Position numbers and translations under genes: made by a program. A stretch of 64,000 nt of DNA from Planctomycetota bacterium (GTDB taxonomy: Bacteria > Planctomycetota > PUPC01 > JACPCR01), in contig JACPCR010000091.1 in the NCBI GenBank assembly GCA_016179685.1, positions 1-64,000 on the forward strand. Direction: 5' to 3'. This document shows positions 19,328 through 60,463 of the stretch, piece by piece. Below the pieces are notes generated by a model that searched no databases, was not told where the DNA came from, and worked only from the letters and a program-made list of their open reading frames with translations. The stretch's first letter is position 1; each line of letters opens with the position of its first letter.

Positions 19328-19714
19328 GTGAGGATGAAGAAACAGGAACACCAAGCAGAATGGAATAAGGTCGAGCACCGATTATTCTTGTTCATCGCCC
19401 AGAACGGACGCGGTAAGCCATTGTATAGCCTGGCCACCATTATCAAGCTGATTGCGAAGACGACGATGCGCCCCGGGCTCGAGATTCGATGCATGCTGGA
19501 TCATCGGGTTTACCTCAAAGCCATCAAGATCGCGGACGAACAGATGGCGGAGGTGAATCTTGCTCCGCATTCGTATCATGGAGATTGGAACTACACCATT
19601 GATCCGGCTGATGGAATACCCCATATTATTTATAGCAGCCGCAGAAACCTCGCTGGGACCGCCAGTGCCTTTCTGGCATTATCGCGTAAATCACTCGAGG
19701 GGAACGAGATATAG
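19328..19714 (+). pseudogene. ISAzo13-family transposase C-terminal remnant
   Basis: The frame encodes WNKVEHRLFLFIAQNGRGKPL, then TIIKLIAKTTMRPGLEIRC and IADEQMAEVNLAPHSYHGDWNYTI. This matches the C-terminal part of ISAzo13 ('Rhodopirellula transposase') DDE transposases, normally ...WNKIEHRLFSF...TGL.V...FHGEWNYTI. The N-terminal three quarters, with the catalytic DDE residues, are missing. After WNYTI (about 19606) the frame runs on into unrelated sequence. A decayed insertion-sequence end at the edge of the repeat island. Confidence 0.75.
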
Positions 19715-19764
19715 CAACGGCGTGGAAGCACCAGCAGACGCAAGGGGAGGTTTCTGCGGCTGCT
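19634..19764. mobile_element. Small inverted-repeat element with perfect 18-bp ends
   Basis: AGCAGCCGCAGAAACCTC at 19634-19651 is repeated exactly as its complement at 19747-19764, enclosing 95 bp of non-coding sequence. AT-rich stretches (TTATTTAT and TCTTATTA) flank both ends. It lies inside the run-on of the transposase remnant, consistent with a MITE or an internally deleted insertion element. Confidence 0.6.
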
Positions 19765-19933
19765 CTTATTACCCCCCATATGGTGAGCCAGGAGTGCCGG
19801 AAGCAGGCTCGGAGGACTGGCCAGGCGAGGAGGGAGGGACCCGTTGTTTGCAGCAGGCTGTGAAGTAAGAACTCGGCCGGGCCGAGTCCGCTGCGGTATG
19901 GCCCGACGCCAAATCCCCGCCGTCGACATCCCA

Positions 19934-20228
19934 GTCAGACCTGTGCAGGTGTGACCGAGGGGGCGAGGACGAAGCGGGTCACACCTGTGCACGTGTGACC
20001 GGGGGCCAAGCTCCACTGCGCGTGTGACCGAGGGGGACGAGGACGAGGCGGGTGGCCCCTATGCACGTGTGGCCTGAGGGCGAACTCCGCCTGACGCCCC
20101 CTCGGTCACACCTGTGCAGGTGTGACCGAGGGGGCGAGGACGAGGCGGGTCACACCGGTACACGTGTAACCTCGGTTCAAGCTTCGCCCGACGACGACGA
20201 CCCTGATCACACTTGTGAAAGTGTGGCC
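19934..20228. repeat. Palindrome array, left cluster (about seven copies)
   Basis: Seven copies of a 24-bp imperfect palindrome with arms GGTCACAC and GTGTGACC around an 8-bp core containing GTGCAC. They start at 19934, 19977, about 20005 (right half only), 20051, 20104, 20148 and 20205. Spacing is 43-57 bp for most neighbours. Linkers are also repeated: a GAGGGGGCGAGGACGAGGCG type, and a GGTTCAAGCTTCGCCCG type that recurs in the right cluster. The copies towards the regulator gene (20148 and 20205) are the most diverged. No coding function. Confidence 0.9.
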
Positions 20229-20481
20229 GAGGTGAGTGAATGGCTGCCCCTCTCCTTATACGAATGTGCAGAATGAAAATCGGCAGGGGGTAATCCTCGT
20301 GGCAGAAGAACTGTTCCACGGAAACGGCGCGGAGTGAAGCGGGTGGGCCCGCTTCCTGTAGGTCTCCGCAAGTGGACGCCTGCACTTGAGCCGCAAGAGA
20401 TCAACCTCGAAGAGCGACTGGATACTGACGAGAGTCTTCGATCCCTGCCGAGATGGAATGTCTGGAAAATTCGGGTTCACA

Positions 20482-21060
20482 CTAGCTGGGGGACACAATA
20501 GCCAAGGCCAGCAGGTTTCTGGCCAGTGGATCCTCAGGTCTGACACTGTGGTAGGTTTTGCCGCGGACTATGACGAATTTCCGGCGAACGAGTTTCATGA
20601 GGTGACGTCGAAGAGCCCTTTGAGGCACTCGAGTCCGGACATGCAGCTGTTGCAAGGTCATCGGCCTCTCACGCAGGGCGGTCAGAATCTTCTGGCGGCG
20701 AGGATGAGTAAAGGCGGTCAGCAGCCGGAAAATGTTACCCGTACAGTCCCTCTTGCAACTCAGTGCGCGCTGCAAGCTCACCAGGAGAGGTCGTGCGGCG
20801 GGAATGGTTCTATCCGCGGCCAGCCGATAACGAACGAATCGTCCCGTGGGACGTGCCTTGAGAATGCCCCGGGCGTTCATGGCACGCAGGTATCGGCTGG
20901 CCAAATCCGCTCGAATTTTCATAGCGCTGGCAACTTCCGATACGGCCCTTTCACGTTGGCCCATGAGGTGTTTCAGGATTTTTAGACGCGTGTGATTCGC
21001 CAGGACCCGGCAGGTTCTCCAAAAGGTTGGCTGTGGTTGGAAACGTAAAAGTGACTTCAT
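20482..21060 (-). CDS. Tandem winged-helix (ArsR-like) transcriptional regulator
   Basis: A 192-residue basic protein with two winged-helix domains in tandem. Domain one (about 10-85) reads FWRTCRVLANHTRLKILKHL...AVSEVASAMKIRADLASRYLRAMNARGILKARPTGRFVRYRL, the ArsR pattern. Domain two (about 110-180) reads IFRLLTAFTHPRRQKILTAL...MTLQQLHVRTRVPQRALRRHLMKLVRRKFV. Cys residues exist (FWRTCRV and CKRDC), but a metal site cannot be claimed. ATG 21060 is preferred over an in-frame GTG at 21069; no strong ribosome site. It sits exactly between the two palindrome clusters, so autoregulation through them is a testable inference. Confidence 0.82.
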   Translation of the reverse strand: MKSLLRFQPQPTFWRTCRVLANHTRLKILKHLMGQRERAVSEVASAMKIRADLASRYLRAMNARGILKARPTGRFVRYRLAADRTIPAARPLLVSLQRALSCKRDCTGNIFRLLTAFTHPRRQKILTALRERPMTLQQLHVRTRVPQRALRRHLMKLVRRKFVIVRGKTYHSVRPEDPLARNLLALAIVSPS

Positions 21061-21168
21061 AGATGTCACTGTACAGATTTTTCACCTCGTTCTCCAGCCT
21101 CGGGTGGGTATGAGCGTCCGGAAATTCAGGACCGCCTCGGGTCCCGGCAGGCTGCATGTTTGTGCCAT

Positions 21169-21732
21169 GGTCACGCCTGTGCAAGTGGCCCAGTCGTCGT
21201 TCGATCCGTGCCTCGGTCACACCGGTGCACGTGTGACCGGGGGCCAAGTGTTGTTCTGTCTGTGCCATGGTCACACCTGTGCACGTGCGACCGATGGGGC
21301 GAGAACGAGGAGTAGTCACAATGGTGCACGTGTGACCGAGGGCCAAGCTCCACTGCGCGTGTGACCGAGGAGGCGGGTCACACCTGTGCACGTGTGACCT
21401 GGGTTCAAGCTTCGCCCGACGACGCCACAGGTCACACCTGTGCACGTGTGACCGAGGGCCAAGTGTTGTTCTGTCCGTGCCATGGTCACACCTGTGCACG
21501 TGCGACCGATGGGACGAGAACGAGGAGTGGTCACACCTGAGCAAATGCGACCGAGGGCCAAGCTCCACTGCACGTGTGACCTGGGTTCAAGCTCCACCCG
21601 ACGACGCCACGGGTCACACCGGTGCACGTGTGACCGATAGGACGAGAACGAGGAGGGGTCACACTGGTGCACGTGTGACCGAGGGCCAAGTGACGTCCGG
21701 TGCGTGCCCGAATCTCACCGGTGCAAATAACC
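21169..21732. repeat. Palindrome array, right cluster (about thirteen full and half copies)
   Basis: Full 24-bp copies begin at 21215, 21269, 21314, 21376, 21430, 21484, 21529, 21612 and 21657, plus a 22-bp copy at 21169; right half-copies lie at 21351 and 21566 and a remnant at 21713. The arms are GGTCACAC/GTGTGACC, the core mostly CTGTGCAC or CGGTGCAC. Copy-to-copy distances are mainly 45 or 54 bp. Three linker types are themselves conserved: about 30 bp with GGGCCAAGTGTTGTTCTGTC, 21 bp with GGACGAGAACGAGGAG, and 30 bp with GGTTCAAGCTTCGCCCG. The array therefore grew by duplication of multi-unit blocks. Confidence 0.92.
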
Positions 21733-21759
21733 TCTTGAATTTAGAGTTCAGTCAAACCA

Positions 21760-25939: not shown

Positions 25940-25947
25940 CAAAATCA

Positions 25948-26073
25948 TAGAGCGCCAAGTCCTGTCCCGGACAGGAGCGGGGGAACCAAGTCCCAGGGGC
26001 GTATCGCCGCCAGGCGTAGGGCAACTTCTTCGGCCCGAGCCCGTCAGCTAACCTCGCAGGCGTCGAAGGAGAG
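25948..26073 (+). promoter_or_regulatory. c-di-AMP riboswitch (ydaO/yuaA class)
   Basis: The conserved blocks of the ydaO/yuaA aptamer occur in order: AGAGCGCC at the 5' side of P1, a short hairpin CCTGTCCCGGACAGG, CGGGGGAACCAAGTC, GGGGCGTATCGCC, GTAGGGCAACTTCTTCGGCCCGA split across a helix, then CGTCAGCTAACCTCGCAGGCGTCGAAGGAGA closing the aptamer (last block at about 26042-26072). It lies directly upstream of a KimA-type transporter, the commonest partner of this riboswitch. In characterised members, c-di-AMP binding switches expression off. Confidence 0.92.
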
Positions 26074-26130
26074 AACCTTCCGGAGTCGATCGGGGGCCAA
26101 CTCTCCGTTCAGAAACGATTCCGGAGGTTC
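26073..26130 (+). promoter_or_regulatory. Predicted expression platform sequestering the ribosome site
   Basis: GAACCTTCCGG at 26073-26083, right after the aptamer, can pair with CCGGAGGTTC at 26121-26130 with one bulge. The latter contains the GGAGG Shine-Dalgarno for the transporter ATG at 26134. This points to control of translation start rather than a terminator. The pairing is seen directly; how ligand binding shifts it is inference. Confidence 0.6.
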
Positions 26131-26133
26131 ACC

Positions 26134-28131
26134 ATGGGTGACGCGCCGGGCCACGATGGCGGCAGTCAAGCTTCTCCCCCCTTTCTCGAACGCTTCAAGC
26201 ATCTCCTGTTCGGCGCGCCGCGCGACCTGACCGACCGGCGTATTTTTCATCGCCTCTCCGTAGTGGCTTTCCTCGCCTGGGTGGGACTCGGGGCGGATGG
26301 TCTCTCCTCCTCGGCCTACGGCCCGGAAGAGGCTTTTCGCACGCTCGGCGCGCATACCTATCTCGCCGTCCCCATTGCGGTACTGATGATCACGACGGTG
26401 TTCATCATTTCCGCCTGTTACAGCAGGCTGATTGATCGTTTCCCGCACGGAGGTGGCGGCTACGTGGTTGCCACGGCTCTCCTCGGAGAGCGCGCTGGCG
26501 TCGTCTCAGGTTCCGCCTTGCTCGTCGATTACGTTCTGACTATTACCGTCTCCATCGCTGCGGCCGGCGACGCCATGTTCAGCTTCCTGCCGCTCGACTG
26601 GCACGAGCTGAAGCTCCCCGCTGAAATCGTCCTGATCCTGGGCCTGGTCACTATCAATATCCGCGGGGTCAAGGAATCCATCTTGATCCTGATGCCCGTA
26701 TTCATCCTCTTCCTTGCTACCCATGCGGTCCTTATCGGAGGCGGGATTCTGGCGCACGCGGACGCCCTGGGGGATGCAGCGAGAGAGGTCCATCAAGGCT
26801 TCCGCATGGGCCTGTCGTCCCTCGGCGTCGGCGGCATGCTTCTCCTGCTCGTGCATGCCTATTCGCTCGGCGGAGGTACCTATACCGGAATCGAGGCGGT
26901 CTCCAACGGCCTTCCCATCATGCGGCAGCCGCGGGTGCGCACGGCCAAGCGGACGATGGTCTATATGGCGACTTCGCTGGCCCTCACGGCCTCCGGCTTG
27001 ACGCTCTGCTACCTGCTGTGGAAGGTTTCGGTGACGCCAGGCAAGACGCTCAACGCTGTTCTGGCCGAGCAGGTGGCTTCGAGCTTGGCCCTGGGTGCCG
27101 GCTTCAAGATTCTGACGCTCCTCTCGGAGGGAATGTTGCTGGTGGTCGCGGCGCAGGCCGGGTTCATCGACGGACCCCGTGTCCTCGCTAACATGGCGAT
27201 CGACTCCTGGTTTCCCCGCCGGTTCGCAGCCTTGTCGGACAGACTGACGACCCGGAACGGCATCGTGCTGATGGGCGGGACGGCGCTGGCGGCCATTCTC
27301 TACACGAAGGGAGACGTGCGTCACATCGTCGTGATGTACAGCATCAACGTCTTTTTGACGTTCTCGCTGTCCATGCTCGGCATGGTCCACTCGCTCTGGC
27401 AGCAGCGCCGCCGGAAAGGATTCTCCTGGAGGAGGCCGTTCCTGCTCTTCGCCCTGGGCCTCATCTTCTGCGTCACGATCCTGGCGATCACCGTGGTTGC
27501 AAAGTTCGGCGAAGGAGGGTGGATCACTCTGGCCGCCACGGGCACGGTCGTGCTGTTCTGTTTCTGGGTCCGGCGTCACTATCAGATCGTGACGGCCAAG
27601 CTGGCCGCCCTTTATGCGAGTCTGGCGCAAATGCCAAGGATACCGGAAAAGGCGCTGGCTCCCCTGGACGCCTCGCAGCCGACGGCCGCCGTGCTCGTGG
27701 GGAGCTACAGCGGGCTCGGTATTCACACGACTCTGGCTGCGTTTCGGGCCTTTCCCGGGCAGTTCAAGAACGTAGTTTTTCTCTCCGCCGGGGTCATCGA
27801 TTCCGGAGCTTTCAAGGGAGAAGATTCGCTCGACCGCCTTCGGGAGCAGACCGCGGGTGATCTCCAAAAATACAAGGAACTGGTGGAGAGCCGGGGAGTG
27901 CCGGCAACGTATCGGATGGCGATCGGAACGGATGTCGTGTCGGAGCTGGAACAACTGTGCCTCGAAGCGGCGAAGGAATTTCCGCAGATCACCTTTGTTG
28001 CGGGTCAGCTCATTTTCCAGCGGGAGCGCTGGTATCAGGCCATCCTGCACAACGAGACGGCGTTCGCCCTTCAGAGGAGGCTGCAGGTGGCGGGCCACAC
28101 GATAGTCATTCTTCCCGCCCGTGTAGAGTGA
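26134..28131 (+). CDS. kimA: KimA-type APC-superfamily potassium transporter
   Basis: A 665-residue inner-membrane transporter of the APC superfamily (YdaO/KimA group), importing K+ with protons. The N-terminal signature LSVVAFLAWVGLGADGLSSSAYGPEEAF is diagnostic, followed by HGGGGYVVATALLG and YTGIEAVSNGLP. About 12 membrane helices (residues about 45-505) precede a cytosolic C-terminal domain (about 530-665) with a universal-stress-like fold (AAVLVGSYSGLGIHTTLAAF). It carries a c-di-AMP riboswitch in its leader, matching c-di-AMP repression of K+ uptake. GGAGG lies seven bases before ATG. No diadenylate cyclase is in this window. Confidence 0.9.
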   Translation: MGDAPGHDGGSQASPPFLERFKHLLFGAPRDLTDRRIFHRLSVVAFLAWVGLGADGLSSSAYGPEEAFRTLGAHTYLAVPIAVLMITTVFIISACYSRLIDRFPHGGGGYVVATALLGERAGVVSGSALLVDYVLTITVSIAAAGDAMFSFLPLDWHELKLPAEIVLILGLVTINIRGVKESILILMPVFILFLATHAVLIGGGILAHADALGDAAREVHQGFRMGLSSLGVGGMLLLLVHAYSLGGGTYTGIEAVSNGLPIMRQPRVRTAKRTMVYMATSLALTASGLTLCYLLWKVSVTPGKTLNAVLAEQVASSLALGAGFKILTLLSEGMLLVVAAQAGFIDGPRVLANMAIDSWFPRRFAALSDRLTTRNGIVLMGGTALAAILYTKGDVRHIVVMYSINVFLTFSLSMLGMVHSLWQQRRRKGFSWRRPFLLFALGLIFCVTILAITVVAKFGEGGWITLAATGTVVLFCFWVRRHYQIVTAKLAALYASLAQMPRIPEKALAPLDASQPTAAVLVGSYSGLGIHTTLAAFRAFPGQFKNVVFLSAGVIDSGAFKGEDSLDRLREQTAGDLQKYKELVESRGVPATYRMAIGTDVVSELEQLCLEAAKEFPQITFVAGQLIFQRERWYQAILHNETAFALQRRLQVAGHTIVILPARVE

Positions 28132-59954: not shown

Positions 59955-60463
59955 AGGCGGAGTCCCGGCCCCTTTTCAAGCGTACGTCGCGGAGGGAAGG
60001 CAGGCGCTGAGACGCCGGGCCTGTCGGCGGTCCGGCGGCCGCGCTACCCGCGCCCGCGGTCGGCCTGCCGCCGTGCAGGCATGCGCACAGTTGAATCAGT
60101 GGATGCCGCGGCCCTGAGCGGTAGCCGGGTAGGCCCCGGGCCGAGCCGCAGGTAAGACCGGCCGCCCGGCGGCCGTAGAGCCTCGGATGTGCAGGCATCT
60201 TGGCAGCAGATATGGGCGGGTGCGCCCCTTGGAGCGCCATCCTGGCGGCGGACATGCGGGGCTGCGGCCCTGGGAGCGCCACGCCATCCTGGCGGCATCT
60301 TCGCGCGACCGACGCAGCGCCAACTGCCGAGCGATACCAGCAAGGTGCCTGTCTGCCGAAGCGGCCTGTCTGCGCCTGCCTATGCCGAGCACGGCAACAG
60401 GTGCAAGGACGCACAGGCAGGCGCAGACAGGCTGGCGCTCCGAGGGGTCCGTGTTCTTTCGTG
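59955..60463. repeat. GC-rich intergenic repeats with an 18-bp hairpin
   Basis: GCCTGTCTGCGCCTGCCT (60364-60381) pairs exactly with 60415-60432 around a 33-base loop. Upstream, two related blocks (GGAGCGCCATCCTGGCGGCGG near 60234 and GGGAGCGCCACGCCATCCTGGCGG near 60270) form short tandem-like repeats with CATCCTGGCGG cores. Very GC-rich; no coding frame with protein character. Confidence 0.6.

Follow-up and report, generated by a model that had tools for sequence, protein, structure and literature searches.

REP elements are known in association with transposases, and iteron or centromere arrays adjoin winged-helix replication or partition proteins (Rep_3, TubR). MatP, SlmA and Noc, whose folds differ from that of the family described here, are encoded by core genes and have one specificity. 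In the REP/RAYT systems (RAYT, REP-associated tyrosine transposases), the gene is flanked by palindromes, and there are dispersed copies, clusters and co-evolution of gene and palindrome (PMC2817692). In the 64,000-nt stretch of DNA analyzed here (the window, to whose positions the coordinates below refer), we found that GGTCACACCTGTGCACGTGTGACC occurs about 20 times, degenerate and half copies included, in two clusters around a gene for a 192-aa protein with two winged helices. As a whole, the locus is best explained, with a probability of roughly 0.7, as a member of a horizontally spread family of autorepressing tandem winged-helix proteins with cognate dispersed palindromes. No description of such a family was found in the open-access literature, and the family with its protein-specific palindromes is apparently undescribed so far.

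Palindrome array and its gene in the window

Fourteen 24-bp palindromes fit the motif. Five of them form the left cluster (19932-20229, not assigned to a strand; full copies centred at 19944, 19988, 20115, 20159 and 20216) and nine the right cluster (21171-21736, likewise without strand; centres at 21226, 21280, 21325, 21387, 21441, 21495, 21540, 21623 and 21668). Three degenerate copies (near 20062 on the left and near 21183 and 21720 on the right) and three half copies (near 20025 on the left and near 21362 and 21577 on the right) bring the array to the approximately 20 imperfect palindromes given in the original prediction. Under a strict motif test applied to the whole window, 12 palindromes passed and all 12 lie inside the array, while 30 shuffles of the window yielded 0.1 on average and one at most. 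Most copies are spaced by 44-45 or 54-57 bp, in agreement with the predicted 43-57 bp, and the three repeated linker types were recovered as well: one of about 20 bp (GA[GT]GGGGCGAGGACGA), one of 30 bp (GGGCCAAGTGTTGTTCTGTCTGTGCCAT) and one of 30-33 bp (GGGTTCAAGCTTCGCCCGACGACG). The GTGCAC core, on the other hand, was misplaced; the palindrome is real, however its dyad centre is CTGT|GCAC, and GTGCAC is therefore off-centre.

A higher-order unit of 152 bp, composed of palindromes and linkers (21215-21366, forward strand), is repeated at 21430-21581 (91% identity) and 21558-21709 (69%). Together with the three repeated linker types, this unit points to growth of the array via tandem duplication, as expected for the recombinogenic repeat that had been suggested on the grounds that linkers are duplicated together with palindromes. 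The exact window class GGTCACAC...GTGTGACC occurs only at this locus within the window's own genome (G000). The array had no match in Rfam and was missed by Tandem Repeats Finder, probably owing to its variable unit lengths; the latter program reported a 42-bp tandem repeat in two copies at 60196-60281. Beside the left cluster, and outside the array, lies a relic insertion, the truncated C-terminus of an ISAzo13-family transposase (PF07592, 19328-19714) with a 25-bp inverted repeat (19627-19651 and 19747-19771). Elsewhere in the window, a c-di-AMP riboswitch (RF00379, 99 bits) at 25943-26078 is directly followed by an open reading frame (26134-28131) that, judging by its sequence, probably encodes a potassium or amino-acid transporter.

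The regulator gene occupies positions 20485-21060 on the reverse strand, with the ATG at 21060 as the best protein start. As predicted, it lies between the two clusters; it is not flush with them, being separated by about 265 bp on the left, where the stretch between the left cluster and the 3' end of the gene (20230-20484) is repeat-free, and by 120-166 bp on the right. The identity proposed for its product, a tandem winged-helix protein of ArsR-like type, is borne out by both profiles and structure prediction. Profiles from Pfam and NCBIfam match two stretches of the single chain as ArsR-type winged helices (NF033788, 74.8 bits against a cut-off of 55; PF01022, 44.8 bits against a cut-off of 22), and the AlphaFold2 model has a pLDDT of 96 and a pTM of 0.88. 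In this model, the predicted recognition helices comprise residues 51-63 and 147-159, and the predicted first wing residues 67-80. Solved PDB structures, e.g. AntR, SmtB, HlyU and NolR, match one half each time, and the two-winged-helix architecture is kept across 32 aligned members, which have no CxC motif and share a near-invariant Cys in WRTCR. Neither the profiles nor the model contain a further domain, and an HUH/Y1 tyrosine nuclease or other catalytic domain is absent from the palindrome-bracketed protein by the same two lines of evidence. Nor was a transposase with terminal inverted repeats, the mark of an insertion sequence or MITE, found in the unit. Searches of defence and phage libraries gave generic winged-helix matches only.

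Relatives, cognate palindromes and residue-base co-variation

The window's genome encodes five full-length members of the family on five contigs, the other four being 42-63% identical to the window protein, and each has its own palindrome nearby (GGTCACACCTGTGCACGTGTGACC on C57, CCTCACACCTGTTCAGGTGTGAGG on C10, GATCACACGTCGCGAGGTGTGGCG on C84, GGCCACACCTCTTGAAGTGTGCCC on C137 and CCGCACAGTTTATAACGTGTGCGG on C51). A further 80 relatives were collected, mostly from metagenome-assembled genomes of Verrucomicrobiota, Kiritimatiellota and Lentisphaerota. Nearly all of the four paralogues and 80 relatives are flanked by a palindrome of their own, and where genes were counted, there are 1-7 paralogues per genome with different sites. 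The core CACACTTNNNNAAGTGTG was detected in two of 294 genomes from the window's phylum, G000 and G148, which belong to the same class; both carry the gene family. The gene passes a strict threshold in one of the 294 genomes; a looser search, which covered G148 and at most a minority of the others and so could miss divergent members elsewhere, showed that G148 has tandem winged-helix genes. Two of these genes adjoin palindromes, and one such pair matches the dispersed sites of that genome. Thus, the regulator and the palindromes go together at the genome level. The patchy distribution suggests that the family spreads horizontally. No conserved partner or neighbor gene was found among the regulator loci, which hardly share neighbors apart from orthologous sites, and at two loci (L042 and L069) the upstream homology ends at the promoter.

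In five genomes (loci L080, L085, L090, L091 and L092), the regulator occupies an orthologous position next to a stretch of about 3 kb with 80-88% DNA identity, and the palindromes there differ. The conserved upstream 3 kb was considered as a 23S rRNA gene and rejected, since it has no Rfam match. Unusually fast evolution of the gene was likewise unsupported, as the five regulators are 54-70% identical, much like their downstream neighbor.

Palindromes are concentrated around the regulator genes. At 85 loci, and with a symmetry of at least 9/11, their density is 7.7 per kb within 100 bp 5' of the gene, 3.4 per kb within 100 bp 3' of it and about 0.4 per kb elsewhere, which corresponds to approximately 19-fold and 8-fold enrichment, respectively. 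A proximal upstream palindrome is present at 78 loci, in 37 of which its centre lies about 11-15 bp before the start codon. At 34 of the 78 loci a matching downstream copy brackets the gene, as in REP/RAYT systems, and many of the others have extra upstream copies or arrays. A TTGAC motif starts 22-23 bp before the palindrome centre at 16 of the 78 upstream sites and at none of the downstream sites. It is spaced by 17 bp from a -10-like hexamer within the right half of the palindrome, and with this spacing transcription would start near the ATG. On this basis, the start-codon palindrome of the compact units is a putative operator that would cover the spacer and the -10 element of the gene's own, apparently leaderless, promoter, and we propose that the protein likely represses itself. 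Four of the five copies in the window's genome, including that of the window, have no palindrome directly at the start codon, and autorepression of the window gene is therefore inferred from its relatives.

The link between palindrome and regulator that had been predicted is supported by co-variation of residues and bases. Over 80 loci, protein distance correlates with palindrome distance (Mantel r of 0.34, reached by none of 2000 permutations). A first co-variation statistic (Z score) was heavy-tailed and did not exceed the permutation maximum; it was replaced by excess mutual information, with the maximum of 500 permutations as the strict bar. Only three pairs rise above this bar, namely R74 with half-site position 6 and both L53 and Y57 with position 12. 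The best residue for bases 1-3 is R148 or R151, and the best residues for bases 9, 11 and 12 are A51, D52 and L53. Both base 4 and residue 152 vary too little for this test; however, base 4 differs in approximately 0 of 526 pairs that share residue 152 and in 53% of those that do not. All co-varying residues fall within the recognition helices or the wing of the AlphaFold2 model. Because related loci inflate measures of this kind and permutation leaves phylogeny in place, the location of the peaks within contact helices weighs more than the p-values. The outer bases are accordingly linked to the C-terminal recognition helix, the central ones to the N-terminal helix and base 6 to the first wing; this arrangement is consistent with a dimer of tandem winged helices. 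Since residues of one wing and of the two recognition helices vary together with particular bases, the protein very probably recognizes the palindrome, as judged from sequence comparison. A lock-and-key coupling is also seen among the dispersed sites of one genome (G002), where TTCT|AGAA sites have outer GCTC, as in one regulator's own palindrome, and TTTG|CAAA sites mostly have outer TTCC or GGCC, as in the palindromes of two other regulators.

We propose that the product of the window gene is a dimeric, sequence-specific palindrome-binding protein, each chain of which would place two winged helices on one 12-bp half-site. The N-terminal winged helix would read the centre (approximately half-site positions 6-12) and the C-terminal one the outer bases (approximately 1-4). 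Protein and palindrome would co-diversify, thus allowing several paralogues with different palindromes to coexist in one genome.

Dispersed sites and their possible roles

A survey of 19 genomes (18 with relatives and that of the window), allowing at most two mismatches to CACACTTTGCAAAGTGTG, detected from 2 to 64 sites per genome, while the reversed control pattern had none. In the genome G017, a single gene is accompanied by 63 sites that match its own 24-bp palindrome with at most three mismatches, grouped in small arrays. In the window's genome there are 58 matches to the core CACACNTNNNNANGTGTG and none to the control; they fall largely into classes matched to a regulator, the C10 class recurring on C53 and C118 and the C84 class on C9 and C59. 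The class GCGCACAC..GTGTGCGC has no regulator in the assembly, nor does the dispersed class GCGCACACCTGTGCAGGTGTGCGC with its variants (L219, L221, L222, L225, L227 and L229). Approximately 15-20 other places in this genome carry similar arrays without an adjoining regulator. Arrays are also seen at several contig ends (C9, C10, C17, C36, C78, C108, C110 and C133), where they probably break the assembly, so that their true number would exceed the count. Extended variable stems of the terminator-like hairpin kind were clear in G003 only, where they reflect site classes, and not in G017 or G000.

These data bear on the proposal that the array is simply the operator set of its neighboring regulator. 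The many other array loci rule out a strictly local operator array, as do the 63 dispersed sites for one gene in G017. The original prediction had named arrays at many loci without the regulator as the finding that would speak against it; such arrays were found, and they dispose of the purely local array, yet the pairing of gene and palindromes at the genome level holds. Accordingly worded, the favored explanation of an autorepressing family with cognate dispersed palindromes holds that further copies, whether around the gene or scattered between genes, may act as binding sites in trans that titrate the protein, and that palindromes may multiply by local tandem duplication plus a separate dispersal route. 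As the protein is without a nuclease domain, it would not move palindromes as a RAYT would.

The dispersed sites may represent a selfish repeat, the sites of a nucleoid organizer or a regulon. The first of these, in which a selfish REP-like palindrome replicates and is moved in trans by some nuclease or transposase while the winged-helix protein controls or protects it, is compatible with the binding and autorepression proposed above and adds a selfish role; we consider it a possible reading, with the odds somewhat against it. It draws on the REP/RAYT anatomy of flanked gene, dispersed copies, clusters and co-evolution (PMC2817692), on the tandem growth of the arrays, on dispersed sites that have little in common beyond the palindrome, and on the patchy distribution suggestive of horizontal spread. 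However, the protein has no catalytic domain, and palindromes were found near none of 27 Y1-transposase loci in six genomes, so that the Y1 transposase was rejected as the mover; no two close genomes with clear-cut empty sites turned up.

Of the 151 sites in three genomes, all but two (149) are intergenic, in DNA that is 71-74% coding according to the same home-made gene caller. They lie between convergent, tandem and divergent genes alike, with no promoter bias, and most are thus not promoter operators. Such placement, together with the 63 sites for one gene in G017 and the possible bridging of sites by a dimer with two winged helices in each chain, would suit an organizer like MatP, SlmA or Noc, in which the palindromes fold or mark the chromosome and are kept by selection instead of selfish spread. 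This is unlikely given the patchiness of the family (one strict match in 294 genomes of the phylum), the 1-7 paralogues with different sites per genome and the wide range of site numbers.

Somewhat less likely again is an ordinary global regulon, with the dispersed palindromes as operators of neighboring genes. The upstream copy at the regulator gene does resemble an operator, and a perfect lone 24-bp palindrome, GTGCACACTTTGCAAAGTGTGCAC, stands between divergent genes in the window's genome (L220; C22:66852, also listed as C22:66844); the same sequence is the putative operator of a regulator from another genome (L063). Against this, 13 of about 60 site clusters lie between convergent genes, sites also occur just 3' of stop codons and in arrays of up to 14, and the regulator loci have no conserved neighbor gene. 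Finally, verrucomicrobial contaminant contigs in the assembly are very improbable. The gene is rare in the phylum and the assembly is a draft of 137 contigs with 2.85% contamination, yet the five paralogues are spread over five contigs and the 58 core sites over many others, and the independent same-class genome G148 has divergent members with matching palindromes.

Comparison with described systems

A REP-like anatomy in which the only protein is a DNA-binding one raises the question by what means short palindromes are dispersed and for what reason cells retain them. About 80 natural protein-palindrome pairs, several of them apparently orthogonal within one genome, also offer material for a winged-helix recognition code (R74 with base 6, L53 and Y57 with base 12, R148 with bases 1-3, and R152 with base 4).

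Among described systems, the ArsR/SmtB autorepressors (NF033788, PF01022) share the fold of each half and, in the compact units, a palindromic putative operator at the gene's own promoter. They differ in having a single-domain chain of about 100 aa, whereas here a 192-aa chain has two domains for a 24-bp site, dozens of sites occur genome-wide, the metal-site CxC motif is missing, and no adjoining transport or resistance gene was noted. The Rep_3 and TubR arrays are similar in that a winged-helix gene lies beside an array of its sites, which are putative here; however, neither a partner for replication or partition nor a plasmid context was seen at this locus, and the sites are dispersed over the genome. 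MatP/matS, SlmA/SBS and Noc/NBS likewise pair a single DNA-binding protein with numerous scattered specific sites (PMC3116907, PMC4726725), whereas the family described here is patchy, multi-copy and diverse in specificity.

The closest likeness is to REP/RAYT, in which a copy of a short palindrome stands on either side of the gene, further cognate copies lie between genes throughout the genome, singly or in clusters, gene and palindrome co-vary, and several families exist per genome (PMC2817692). In contrast, the protein here consists of two ArsR-type winged helices with no HUH/Y1 nuclease, its palindromes are without the GT(A/G)G head, and the palindrome 5' of the gene coincides with its promoter. 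The window system thus resembles REP/RAYT and is not filed with it, because the nuclease is absent and the Y1 genes of the genomes examined have no palindromes nearby. Tentatively, and with chances slightly below even, these features may define a dispersed repeat system of a new class. A tandem winged-helix protein without catalytic function that represses its own gene would co-evolve with its palindrome as lock and key; such a pair would enter genomes by horizontal spread and populate intergenic regions with matching arrays, several orthogonal pairs sharing a genome, and the role of the RAYT would be taken by a DNA-binding protein that does not cut.
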